A stretch of 64,000 bases of DNA from positions 1,612,001 through 1,676,000 of the forward strand of contig NZ_CP051151.1 in NCBI RefSeq assembly GCF_013745115.1, read 5' to 3'. The notes under the pieces were generated by a model. That model had not been told where the DNA came from. It saw only the letters and a program-made list of their open reading frames with translations, and ran no database searches. Source of the stretch: Hujiaoplasma nucleasis. Its GTDB lineage: Bacteria > Bacillota_I > Bacilli_A > Izemoplasmatales > Hujiaoplasmataceae. This document shows, one piece after another, positions 27,786 through 33,930 of this stretch. Within the stretch, counting starts at the first letter, position 1. Every line of letters begins with the position of its first letter. The position numbers were made by a program, and so were the translations under genes.

Positions 27786-30773
27786 ATGAAAAAAATTCTA
27801 ATTGCAGCGATGTTTATCTTGCTATTTGTTCTTGTATCATGCACGGATGATACAAGAATATCGACTGATTTTCCAACAACAACAAATCAAGTTACTGAAG
27901 AACCAACAACAATAGAAAGCACTTTTGAAGAGACAACGATGCTCCAAACGACAGAAGAAATTACTTCTGAGCAAGCAACTGAGCTGCCAACGACAATTGT
28001 TGATACGACAGATGAAACATCTGAAGTTTCTACAACAATCCCAACAGAGGAACCTACAGAAATTCCAACCGAAGAGCCTACTGAAGTGCCAACAACTGAA
28101 GAACCAACGACAGAAGAACCAACGACAGAAGAACCTACCACTGAAGTTGAAGTGATAGATACAGTCCTTGGTTTAGAAGATACTCAAGTGATTGTTGATC
28201 ATTATTTTAATCCTATGCTTGATGTATCGGCTTATTCATCTTTTGGAAAAGATATTACTTATTTAATTGAAATCACCGGTTTTGTTGACTATGGAACTGT
28301 AGGAGAATATGATTTAACCTACAATATTTCTTATTTAGAAGATTCTTTTTCAGCGACCAGAAGTATTTCTATTGTTGAAGGCACTTACTCTAGTCCAAGT
28401 GGTTCTAGACCTATTGGAGATACAGGAACAGTAAGCCTTGGGCAAGGATCATATGTGACAGGAAGTGACTCAAGCATAGCTCATCCTATAAACGCAACTT
28501 TCTTGAGGAAAAACTTACTCAATGATGCCATTCCATCGAGTGGGTGGTGGACAAGCTTACTTGTTCAAAATTATGGAGGGTCTAATGGTTTGTATTTAAA
28601 TCCATTAAGAGTCGCTTTTGCCAATGAAGGCATGGAAATAACCAATCCTTTAGATGGTTTTGTTCAATACTGGAATCCTGAGGGTTATCAGACCATTGCC
28701 CAATTTCCGATAGCCTTAAAAGACGCTTATTTAAAGTCTTCAGATTTGAATGTTGGTTATGTTACTGAAGTTATCGATTATTCAGATTCAATGGTCAAAG
28801 TTGCAATGAAAAATAATTTACTTTCTGAAGATGAAGTGGTTGTGACTTTAGTCCAAGGATCACCTTATGTTTTTGTAGAGACAGCTAACAAAAATTCGAT
28901 GACACTCACGATGGATTCTAGTGTTACGATTGAATATTATAATCTACAAGGACAAAAAATTACAACACCAACACATCAAGACCAAGCTATTATTGTAAAA
29001 ATGGTTCAAAGACATTCTGGCTATGATACTTCTCCACCTGCAAATGTTGGACAAGCGCAATATACAGACAAATACTATTTGGTTAATGTTCCTAATAATT
29101 CTACTTTCACAATGAATAACAACCAACTATCAATGACATTGGGAGATGGAAACTATCTTTCAATCGCTGCTATAAATGATTTATCTGAAGCTATGTTTTA
29201 TCACAATCATGGCTATTCAATGATTACAGATACATCAATTACTTATGAAATTGATAAAATGAATAGTATGGTTTATACAGATTATCAAATGATAGTTCAA
29301 AATCTTAAAAGTACAAATTTTGAAAGTCCTTTATTGGCTTTAATGCCTCATCAATATAAATATAGTGATGCTCTTTTAAGTGATTATTCTTACAGAACCG
29401 TTAGAGGTACTTTAAAAGTGATGGAAGGATCTTATTTCCAAACCATCTTATCATTTAATGGTTTGTTACCTGGTTATACCTTACCTGAGAACACTGCCTT
29501 TAATCAAAGCGATCAAATTGCTTATTTATATGATCTTGATTCAAGAACTGAAATTAGTGATTTAGACAATTTCTATAATGATGAAGGTCCTTATTGGAAT
29601 TCAAAAGCCATTTATCCTTTGGCACAAGGAATTATTATTGCTGATCAATTAGGAGAAGAATTATTAGAAATTTCGTTTGTAGGTAAGTTAAAATACTTAC
29701 TTGCTGATTGGTACACCTATGATGGAACAAGTGATGATAAGTATTTATTCTACAATAATCCATGGGGAAGTGTATATTACTCAAATGATGATTTTGCTAC
29801 AGCTTCAACATTAAGTGATCACTCTTTCACTCATGGCTACTTAATTTATGGATCTGCAGTATTAGCAATGTACGATTCAACTTTTGTTGAAGAGTATGGG
29901 GACATGGTTGAACTCTTATTGGATGATTACATGTACCCACATAAAGATGATGCTGAGTTTGCATATTTGAGAAATTTTGATCCATGGGCAGGCCATAGCT
30001 GGGCTCATGGTTTTGGGACTTTTGCTGAAGGGAACAACTTAGAATCAACTTCAGAAGCCTTAAATTCATGGAATGCTGGTTATTTATGGGCCTTACAAAC
30101 AGGCGATGAAGCTAGAATGAATGCTGCTATTTATGGCTTTGTTACAGAAATATCTGCAATCAAAGAATACTGGTTTGATTATGATGAAGAAAATTGGGAT
30201 CCAGCCTTTGGTGACTATGTAGATGTTGCCGGAATGGTATGGGGAGGTAAGCATGATTACGCAACTTGGTTTGGGGCAAACCCAACATTTATTTACGGGA
30301 TTCAATGGTTGCCTACTGGAGAATATTTAACAAATTATGCTCTAAATGATAAAGATTACGATAAATTATCATCAATATATCAAACGTATTTACAAGCTAA
30401 GAATGGAGAGATAGACACATGGTATAGTAATATGTGGGCTATTCAAGCTATTATTGATCCTGACATAGCTATTATTGAATTTGACTCATCATTAATTTTA
30501 AATGATGATTATCCAGCTGAGTTATCAGGAACATACTGGATGATTCATGCCCTTGATTCTTTGGGAAGAAGAGATACAAGTGTATGGATGGAAATCACTA
30601 TGGGTGTAACATCTACAGTATACAAAGACGAATCCAATAACCTTTATGCTATGATTTGGAATTCGAGTACAAGTCCTAAGACTATTGATTTTTATAATCA
30701 AGATGGTTTATTTACAAGTGTTTCAGTCAATGCTCGTTCTTTTACCAAGGTTGAATTAATTTCTAATCAATAG
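27786..30773 (+). CDS. GH81 endo-beta-1,3-glucanase lipoprotein with Ig-like domain
   Basis: Secreted, lipid-anchored glycoside hydrolase (995 aa). Lipobox LVSC sets the lipidated Cys at 19. A Thr/Glu/Pro repeat stalk (about 25-120) is followed by a probable Ig-like/DUF5011 domain (about 120-200) and the GH81 catalytic domain (about 230-950). Family signatures include SGWWTSLLVQN, RNFDPWAGHSWAHGFG with Asp732, and NNLESTSEALNSW with Glu753 and Glu757, matching the active-site region of laminarinases. It would cut beta-1,3-glucans such as laminarin. A terminator follows. Confidence 0.88.
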   Translation: MKKILIAAMFILLFVLVSCTDDTRISTDFPTTTNQVTEEPTTIESTFEETTMLQTTEEITSEQATELPTTIVDTTDETSEVSTTIPTEEPTEIPTEEPTEVPTTEEPTTEEPTTEEPTTEVEVIDTVLGLEDTQVIVDHYFNPMLDVSAYSSFGKDITYLIEITGFVDYGTVGEYDLTYNISYLEDSFSATRSISIVEGTYSSPSGSRPIGDTGTVSLGQGSYVTGSDSSIAHPINATFLRKNLLNDAIPSSGWWTSLLVQNYGGSNGLYLNPLRVAFANEGMEITNPLDGFVQYWNPEGYQTIAQFPIALKDAYLKSSDLNVGYVTEVIDYSDSMVKVAMKNNLLSEDEVVVTLVQGSPYVFVETANKNSMTLTMDSSVTIEYYNLQGQKITTPTHQDQAIIVKMVQRHSGYDTSPPANVGQAQYTDKYYLVNVPNNSTFTMNNNQLSMTLGDGNYLSIAAINDLSEAMFYHNHGYSMITDTSITYEIDKMNSMVYTDYQMIVQNLKSTNFESPLLALMPHQYKYSDALLSDYSYRTVRGTLKVMEGSYFQTILSFNGLLPGYTLPENTAFNQSDQIAYLYDLDSRTEISDLDNFYNDEGPYWNSKAIYPLAQGIIIADQLGEELLEISFVGKLKYLLADWYTYDGTSDDKYLFYNNPWGSVYYSNDDFATASTLSDHSFTHGYLIYGSAVLAMYDSTFVEEYGDMVELLLDDYMYPHKDDAEFAYLRNFDPWAGHSWAHGFGTFAEGNNLESTSEALNSWNAGYLWALQTGDEARMNAAIYGFVTEISAIKEYWFDYDEENWDPAFGDYVDVAGMVWGGKHDYATWFGANPTFIYGIQWLPTGEYLTNYALNDKDYDKLSSIYQTYLQAKNGEIDTWYSNMWAIQAIIDPDIAIIEFDSSLILNDDYPAELSGTYWMIHALDSLGRRDTSVWMEITMGVTSTVYKDESNNLYAMIWNSSTSPKTIDFYNQDGLFTSVSVNARSFTKVELISNQ
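28041..28143 (+). repeat. Degenerate tandem repeats coding for E-(E)-P-T stalk
   Basis: Inside the GH81 gene. Three 15-base units, 28098-28112, 28113-28127 (both GAAGAACCAACGACA) and 28128-28142 (diverged), preceded by looser copies. They encode repeats of T-E-E-P-T. Copy number could vary between strains by slippage; this is inference. Confidence 0.7.
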
Positions 30774-32149: not shown

Positions 32150-32178
32150 TTGACTTTTATCTGTTCTTAGATTATGAT
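32150..32178 (+). promoter_or_regulatory. Promoter of the T-box-controlled lyase gene
   Basis: TTGACT, 17 bases, TATGAT. It would start transcription near 32185, just before the T-box stem I. Sequence and placement agree well. Confidence 0.75.
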
Positions 32179-32194
32179 ATTTACAATATAAAAA

Positions 32195-32456
32195 TGTTGA
32201 TTAAGAACTAGTAAGAAAAATAGAAGCCAAACAGAAAGTAACCGTTTGTTGAGAGGTGCATGGATCTTTTTTCCGAATACATCTTAGGAGTTGTACTTCA
32301 AAAAGCCTATGCTTAGTAGAAGTTTCCGGGTTTGCATCCGTTGTCAATGCAAAGTGTTGTTAGACACTTGTTGAGTTCAATATCGTGAGGTATTGTTAAA
32401 CTTAGGTGGTATCACGGTTATTTCCGTCCTTTGATTTTCAAAGGACGGTTTTTTTT
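32195..32456 (+). promoter_or_regulatory. T-box leader RNA, tyrosine specifier (UAC)
   Basis: A complete T-box. Stem I base AAGA (32203-32206) pairs with UCUU (32282-32285). The loop-E elements AGUA (32210-32213) and GAA (32275-32277) flank specifier UAC (32278-32280), followed by A. AG-rich bulge AGAAAG and UGAGAG lie in the distal arm. Stem III has CCGUUGUC in its loop (TTTGCAT with ATGCAAA). The T-box AGGTGGTATCACGG is at 32404-32417, and the terminator stem 32424-32433/32439-32448 is followed by 8 Ts. Uncharged tRNA(Tyr) would bind and favour read-through. A UGG at 32261-32263 is not in specifier position. Confidence 0.92.
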
Positions 32457-32481
32457 ATATAAATTTAAGGAGGATGTAGAA

Positions 32482-33930
32482 ATGGAACAAATTAAGTTGT
32501 TTAGTGGTCAAGCTTTACCCTTAGAAATGCACAAAGTAAGGATTGTTGAAAAACTCAATCTTATTCCTGTAGAAGAGAGAGCAAAGGCGATGATTGAAGC
32601 AGGATGTAACACATTTTTATTAAGAAATAAAGATGTTTTTATGGATATGTTAACTGATAGTGGGGTTAACGCCATGAGTCAAAACCAACAAGCTGCTATG
32701 TTAGTAGCTGATGATAGTTACGCTGGTAGTGAATCCTTTTATCGATTTGAGAGTAAGATACAAGAGCTTTTTGGCATGAATTTTGTTTTGCCTGCTCACC
32801 AAGGAAGAGCTTGTGAGAATATTTTGTCACAAGTTTATGTTAAGGATGGTCAATTTGTTCCAATGAACTATCACTTCACTACCACAAAAGCGCATATTCA
32901 ATTGAATGGTGGGACGGTTGTTGAACTTATGACTGAAGAAGGTCTTAAGATTAATAGTGACGAAATGTTTAAGGGAAACATGGATACAAATGCCTTAGCA
33001 AAATTTATTAAGGATAAGGGGCCTGAAAATATTGCTTTTGTAAGAATGGAAGCTGGAACGAACCTAATTGGTGGCCAACCTTTTTCATTAAAAAATTTGG
33101 AAGAAGTATCCAATTTATGTCATCATTCGAATATATTATTAGTATTAGATGCATCATTATTAAGTGATAATCTATATTTTATTAAGAAACGAGAAGAAGA
33201 CTTTAAAAACCAATCGATTAGACAAATTACCAAGAAGATTGCAAATCTTTGTGATATCATCTATTTTTCTGCAAGAAAACTAGGTTCTGCAAGAGGTGGT
33301 GCGATTGTGGTTAGAAAACAAGAAGATTACGATCGGATGAAAGGACTTATCACTTTATATGAAGGTTTTTTAACTTATGGTGGTATGTCAGTTAGAGAAA
33401 TAGAAGCCATCACGATAGGTTTAGAAGAAACAATGGATGAGAATATGATAAATCAAGGTCCTCAGTTCATTGAATACATGACCAATGAACTACTCAAGGC
33501 TGGTGTTCCTGTTGTGACACCCGCAGGAGGCTTAGGTTGTCATATAAATGCTAAGGATTTCTTGCCACATATACCACAAGAACAGTATCCTGCAGGAGCT
33601 TTAGCTGCTGCTCTTTATGTTACAGGAGGCATTAGAGGAATGGAACGTGGGACACTATCAGAAGAAAGGCAAAGTGATGGTAGTGAAACTTTAGCAAATA
33701 TGGAGTTGGTGCGTATAGCTTTACCGAGAAGAGTATTCACTTTGTCACAGGTGAAGTATGTTATCGATAGAATTATATGGTTGTTTAATCATCGAGAATT
33801 AGTTCAAGGTTTGGTTTTTGAATTAGAACCTGAAATATTAAGATTCTTCTTTGGAAGACTAACAACTATTAGTCCATGGATTGAAGATTTAGTCAAAAAA
33901 TTTAGAGAAGATTTCGGTGATAGTTTATAG
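32482..33930 (+). CDS. Tyrosine phenol-lyase-like PLP enzyme (tryptophanase/TPL family)
   Basis: PLP-dependent beta-eliminating lyase (482 aa), cytoplasmic. Start chosen at ATG 32482, 8 bases after AAGGAGGA. Compared from memory with Citrobacter TPL, the positions that hold the phenol group in TPL are kept: Phe132-Thr133 (FTTT) and Arg389 (GMERG), where tryptophanase has Asp and Ile. Tyr80, Asp223, PLP-Lys266 and carboxylate-binding Arg416 are also present. Unusual points: Arg217 of TPL is replaced by Leu226, and the SGKKD motif around the lysine reads SARKL. Preceded by a Tyr T-box, which supports tyrosine as substrate or product. A terminator follows. Confidence 0.82.
   Translation: MEQIKLFSGQALPLEMHKVRIVEKLNLIPVEERAKAMIEAGCNTFLLRNKDVFMDMLTDSGVNAMSQNQQAAMLVADDSYAGSESFYRFESKIQELFGMNFVLPAHQGRACENILSQVYVKDGQFVPMNYHFTTTKAHIQLNGGTVVELMTEEGLKINSDEMFKGNMDTNALAKFIKDKGPENIAFVRMEAGTNLIGGQPFSLKNLEEVSNLCHHSNILLVLDASLLSDNLYFIKKREEDFKNQSIRQITKKIANLCDIIYFSARKLGSARGGAIVVRKQEDYDRMKGLITLYEGFLTYGGMSVREIEAITIGLEETMDENMINQGPQFIEYMTNELLKAGVPVVTPAGGLGCHINAKDFLPHIPQEQYPAGALAAALYVTGGIRGMERGTLSEERQSDGSETLANMELVRIALPRRVFTLSQVKYVIDRIIWLFNHRELVQGLVFELEPEILRFFFGRLTTISPWIEDLVKKFREDFGDSL

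Follow-up and report, generated by a model that had tools for sequence, protein, structure and literature searches.

A conserved tyrosine T-box leader ahead of a tyrosine phenol-lyase-like gene in Hujiaoplasma nucleasis, with a probable role in tyrosine formation

The T-box leader and its specifier

The window, by which we mean the whole 64-kb stretch of DNA that was analyzed, contains a T-box riboswitch leader followed by a gene for a protein of the tyrosine phenol-lyase (TPL)/tryptophanase superfamily (Table 1). The Rfam family RF00230 matched the leader with 94.3 bits (E 2.3e-19, cut-off 93) over the full length of the model (positions 1-219), and no RNA family besides this T-box was found by Rfam in the whole window. 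In addition to its score, the leader shows a specifier opposite AGUA, a UGGN bulge, in which UGGU is able to pair with a tRNA ending in ACCA, and a competing intrinsic terminator, which is overlapped by the 3' arm of the antiterminator.

Table 1. Positions in the window of the leader elements and of the gene that they precede
Feature	Position	Strand	Basis
T-box riboswitch leader, stem I to antiterminator	32188-32434	+	RF00230; 12 orthologous genes with homologous leaders
AGUA, 5' half of the loop-E motif of the specifier loop	32210-32213	+	sequence reading, aligned to the AGUA of the model
GAA (32275-32277), then specifier codon UAC (Tyr, 32278-32280)	32275-32280	+	covariance-model alignment, frame calibration, 13 of 13 leaders
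T-box motif AGGUGGUAUCACGG, UGGU at 32407-32410	32404-32417	+	sequence
Intrinsic terminator, 11-bp hairpin (32424-32448) and U8 tract	32424-32456	+	fold, z-score -4.14
Ribosome-binding site	32467-32474
Gene for a 482-aa beta-lyase of the TPL/tryptophanase superfamily, distinct clade; ATG start at 32482	32482-33930	+	PF01212, PRK13238, active-site comparison, tree

The frame of the specifier was calibrated on the nine other T-boxes of the genome, eight of which have a synthetase gene behind them. Judging from a reading of the downstream sequences, they precede valS, leuS, trpS, ileS, pheS, serS, alaS, thrS, and what is likely an asnS operon; none of the T-boxes of this genome stands in front of tyrS. 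Wherever the amino acid can be told from the gene downstream, its codon occupies the same place, the closest context being that of pheS (GAA-UUC-AUCUUU versus GAA-UAC-AUCUUA here), and this agreement in codon position identifies the specifier as that of tyrosine. The covariance model also placed UAC on the specifier columns, and the two lines of evidence together rule out any other specifier. The full T-box with AGUA and GAA around a UAC specifier, as proposed in the sequence-only reading, was thus borne out by the covariance-model score and the calibrated frame, and the case for a tyrosine T-box that would control this gene in the cell is strong.

Regarding the AAC-specifier T-box of the same genome, a transposase-like gene lies directly downstream of the gene that it precedes (L124:3-1776, G000:C1:1264001-1265776), at a place where the congener G004 has, from sequence reading only, an asparaginyl-tRNA synthetase-like gene; asnS may have been displaced in H. 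nucleasis (G000). On the upstream side of the tyrosine leader, the locus is adjoined by a gene of the tocopherol-cyclase family (PF14249, 31193-32140). The same gene pair is found beside the TPL-like gene in the congener G003, at the opposite side of it, and the locus has therefore been rearranged. Further upstream (27786-30773) lies the gene for a 995-aa protein that begins like a lipoprotein (VSCTDD) and has, close to its N-terminus, a repeat of low complexity (PTTEEPT).

A distinct clade with a TPL-type phenol site

The protein passed the superfamily cut-offs for beta-eliminating lyases (PF01212, 169.7 versus 27; PRK13238, 602.4 versus 285), and scored below the equivalog cut-offs for both TPL (TIGR02618, 443.8 versus 720.7 bits) and tryptophanase (TIGR02617, 357.6 versus 825.8). 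Among proteins of solved structure, TPLs are its closest relatives (E 2e-118, 41-42% identity), whereas its identity to the solved tryptophanases is 33-35%, and an AlphaFold model (mean pLDDT 86) had a TPL as its first structural match, with a TM-score of about 0.92 by target length. The earlier description of a TPL-like gene holds as far as superfamily membership and closest solved relatives are concerned; the protein is not a TPL proper, and the curated cut-offs together with the residues described below exclude a genuine TPL as well as a genuine tryptophanase. Since it lies below the TIGR02618 cut-off, phenol is regarded here as a putative substrate.

In a FastTree tree, the protein belongs to a clade that is sister to true TPL, the sampled members of which are at least 58% identical to it. 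The clade also occurs in Aromatoleum, Rhodocyclus, Rhodovulum, Akkermansia, Bacteroidales, Kiritimatiellae, Savagea, Gallicola, and others, and one member on a plasmid of Rhodobacter sp. CZR27 (L151, WP_096787476.1) is annotated as "tryptophanase" despite the TPL-type pocket residues of the clade. No conserved operon partner was found among the Gram-negative carriers, in which only common ABC-transporter genes recur. In a Gallicola metagenome-assembled genome, an azaaromatic (yjdF) riboswitch (L050:6986-7080) precedes a small gene that immediately follows the TPL-like gene.

H. nucleasis has a second gene of the superfamily (G000:C1:1539257), whose product shares 38% identity with the window protein and whose homologs across the order belong to the tryptophanase type. 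Tryptophanase (TnaA) shares the superfamily and has a paralog in H. nucleasis and throughout the order; it differs in its identity to the window protein (34-37%), in having D, I, V, and H at TPL positions 124, 381, 379, and 448, where the window protein has T, R, M, and F, and in the T-box, none of which was found on the tryptophanase-type paralogs tested in the order.

In the TPL of Citrobacter freundii, the hydroxyl group of the substrate is bonded by Arg-381 and Thr-124, a proton is passed by Tyr-71, and the reaction is reversible (PMC9262865). The comparison with TPL (EC 4.1.99.2; C. freundii 2ez1 and Erwinia herbicola 1c7g) extends from the fold and 41% identity to the PLP lysine, Tyr71, the phenol-binding Thr124 and Arg381, and the lid residues Phe448 and Phe449. 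Among clade members with sequence there, the phenol hydroxyl and ring residues T124, R381, M379, F448, and F449 are invariant, and Y71, K257, D214, and R404 are likewise kept. In the PLP site, K257, D214, N185, Q98, R100, and S254 match TPL, whereas R217, which in TPL contacts O3' of PLP, is Leu throughout the clade. The clade further differs from TPL in the invariant changes R217L, K256R, T216S, M288F, E69D, H343L, F346H, and T406A (TPL positions 217 and 256 corresponding to L226 and R265 of the window protein), in a remodeled second shell, and in a conserved 22-residue C-terminal extension. Because R217 is Leu and K256 is Arg across the clade, its chemistry or substrate may differ from that of TPL.

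These eight changes and the extension are consistent with an enzyme that would supply tyrosine, or an aromatic amino acid related to it, during tyrosine starvation by means of another ring donor or half-reaction than phenol, pyruvate, and ammonia, in a remodeled cofactor pocket, and so is a score far under the TPL equivalog cut-off, which the true TPL of G027, a relative from the same family, passes with 857.3. However, every clade member with sequence there retains all of the residues with which TPL contacts the phenol ring and its hydroxyl group, and we consider another donor to be rather unlikely.

Conservation of the pairing and the pathway around it

A UAC T-box precedes the orthologous gene in at least 13 genomes, which comprise four of the same family (H. 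nucleasis, G003, G008, and G024), Gallicola, Miniphocaeibacter, and seven further genomes of the phylum. The covariance model placed UAC on the specifier columns in 10 of the 12 other leaders, and the remaining two were read directly as GAA-UAC; two of the 13 leaders, with 76.4 bits in G024 and 80.9 bits in G323, do not reach the gathering threshold of Rfam. In a further six Bacillota carriers of the gene (G034, G264, G422, L045, L051, and L116), no T-box was seen by searches or by eye. Since the clade stands behind a UAC T-box in 13 genomes that range from this order as far as Gallicola and Miniphocaeibacter, the pairing is no accident. The combination is real, conserved, and unusual, and our literature search found no relevant paper on a T-box combined with TPL.

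The congener G003 has another T-box (126.4 bits), whose specifier is UGG (Trp); it precedes trpB, and this unit is located directly upstream of the tyrosine T-box and TPL-like gene (L152:3836-5353, G003:C101); the T-box motif of the Trp leader is UGGC and that of the Tyr leaders UGGU. This trpB is lone in the sense that trpA is not beside it at the locus. A gene for TrpB also adjoins the TPL-like gene in G460, which is without chorismate synthase, and where chorismate does not supply TrpB, salvage of indole is implied. The G003 locus is possibly an aromatic-ring salvage island, and by the same logic we infer, as an analogy, that the neighboring gene would serve to salvage phenol to tyrosine.

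TPL and tryptophanase are classically catabolic, which would be in keeping with a beta-lyase of the usual degradative kind, acting on tyrosine or S-conjugates, that gained its T-box by chance or for another purpose. The elimination of S-alkyl-cysteines by TPL (PMC9262865) points the same way. On the other hand, 13 orthologs from lineages scattered across the tree share the specifier, the tryptophanase paralogs tested are without a T-box, a Trp T-box and trpB are linked to the gene in G003, and the induction of a degradative gene by starvation for its own substrate would be futile; a degradative role is, in our judgment, improbable. The earlier proposal of an anabolic rather than degradative role gains from the pairing in 13 genomes, from the Trp T-box and trpB beside it in the congener, and from the absence of tyrA in 10 of the 13 T-box carriers.

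The presence and absence of genes in the genomes were assessed by family searches. Chorismate synthase is present in H. nucleasis, and one operon holds aroA, aroB, aroC, an aroE/aroK fusion, aroQ, and DAHP synthase, names that, except for aroC, derive from sequence reading and synteny. The suggestion of a missing shikimate pathway therefore fails for this organism, in which the operon to chorismate is intact; of the three genes that had been proposed for a search, aroA is present, and tyrA and pheA (prephenate dehydratase, PF00800) were not found, the latter nor elsewhere in the genus. The aro operon of the congener G004 begins with tyrA (L125:9070-9921), immediately ahead of aroA, and tyrA is absent from that place in H. 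nucleasis (L124, G000:C1:1264001-1284000), with the rest of the operon intact, and likewise in G001, G003, G011, G018, and G024. Some relatives with a tyrA-less operon also have no TPL-like gene, as is the case for G001.

Within the family, tyrA was found in none of the four carriers versus 24 of the 30 non-carriers (Fisher p = 0.0045; p = 0.012 among genomes at least 80% complete), a contrast that reflects about three loss events, the losses not being independent. Only at the level of the family does the correlation carry information; across the phylum, about 84 of 392 genomes have tyrA, and a comparison is uninformative because most genomes there are without it. Both aroC and tyrA are present in 3 of the 13 T-box carriers (Gallicola, Miniphocaeibacter, and G443), and the enzyme is therefore not always a replacement; most Gram-negative carriers of the clade also have tyrA. 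Four T-box carriers (G267, G337, G414, and G460; 95-98% complete) have neither tyrA nor chorismate synthase, and thus a tyrosine T-box/enzyme pair without the shikimate pathway exists, though not in H. nucleasis, so that the earlier idea of a tyrosine route without this pathway stands for these related carriers.

H. nucleasis, G003, and G024 retain the route to chorismate with neither tyrA nor pheA, which would suit a cyclic alternative to the prephenate route, in which phenol made in the cell from chorismate via 4-hydroxybenzoate is recombined with pyruvate. Nevertheless, no UbiD-family decarboxylase was found in these three genomes, on which ground a supply of phenol by this enzyme was rejected for H. 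nucleasis, some carriers are without chorismate synthase, and G001 keeps the aro operon without the TPL-like gene; we regard such a cycle as highly improbable.

A probable tyrosine-forming enzyme

Since the pairing is found in at least 13 genomes, most of them without tyrA, the most likely role of the enzyme is to make or salvage tyrosine rather than to degrade it. We consider it probable, by a modest measure, that the enzyme is induced by tyrosine starvation and works in the tyrosine-forming direction, with the ring most likely coming from phenol. When tyrosine is short, uncharged tRNA-Tyr would bind the leader, with its anticodon at UAC and its acceptor end at UGGU, the antiterminator would form, and the gene would be transcribed. 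The PLP enzyme of the TPL fold would then join a phenolic ring, most likely phenol, to a three-carbon unit from pyruvate and ammonium, or from serine, and thereby supply tyrosine where the prephenate-dehydrogenase branch is missing or insufficient. A tyrosine-forming net direction is likely, phenol as the ring donor is plausible, and the catalytic activity is predicted. The synthetic use of TPL in vitro is established (PMC7431475; PMC9262865).

The UAC T-box in 13 genomes, the retained phenol-binding residues, and the loss of tyrA from the aro operon favor this tyrosine-forming role, as do the tested paralogs without a T-box, the neighboring Trp T-box and trpB, and the precedent of phenylalanine hydroxylase. 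The changes R217L and K256R and the lack of a UbiD-type source of phenol in H. nucleasis count against it; the carriers with aroC and tyrA, the Gram-negative carriers with tyrA, and G001, with neither tyrA nor the gene, do so as well.

Regarding the precedent, phenylalanine hydroxylase, another enzyme that makes tyrosine, is T-box regulated in the Bacillus cereus group (Wels et al., 2008, PMC2494555), where a Tyr T-box is located on phenylalanine-4-hydroxylase and on the Tyr operon; that enzyme is an oxygen-dependent hydroxylase that uses phenylalanine, whereas the window enzyme is of the PLP lyase type and, unlike the TPLs of C. freundii and E. herbicola, is placed under a starvation-type Tyr T-box. 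The enzyme may be the tyrosine counterpart of the lone trpB that makes tryptophan from indole and serine. Both combine a T-box with a PLP enzyme able to attach an aromatic ring to an amino-acid unit of three carbons, although TrpB is of fold type II and uses serine, and the window enzyme is of fold type I and TPL-like.

We tentatively propose, as a possibility that falls somewhat short of an even chance, that the clade represents widespread, unrecognized, dedicated tyrosine synthases, annotated as "tryptophanase", which use environmental phenol passed between community members and replace prephenate dehydrogenase and, in some genomes, the whole shikimate route. If so, nature would make tyrosine by a lyase-type reaction run backwards on phenol, and phenol would be not only a waste product but also a resource. 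The annotation of a clade spanning several phyla as tryptophanase would be wrong, and its members would be a source of enzymes on which selection for tyrosine synthesis has already acted. Apparent tyrosine auxotrophs would have a hidden route of supply, and predictions of auxotrophy would change.
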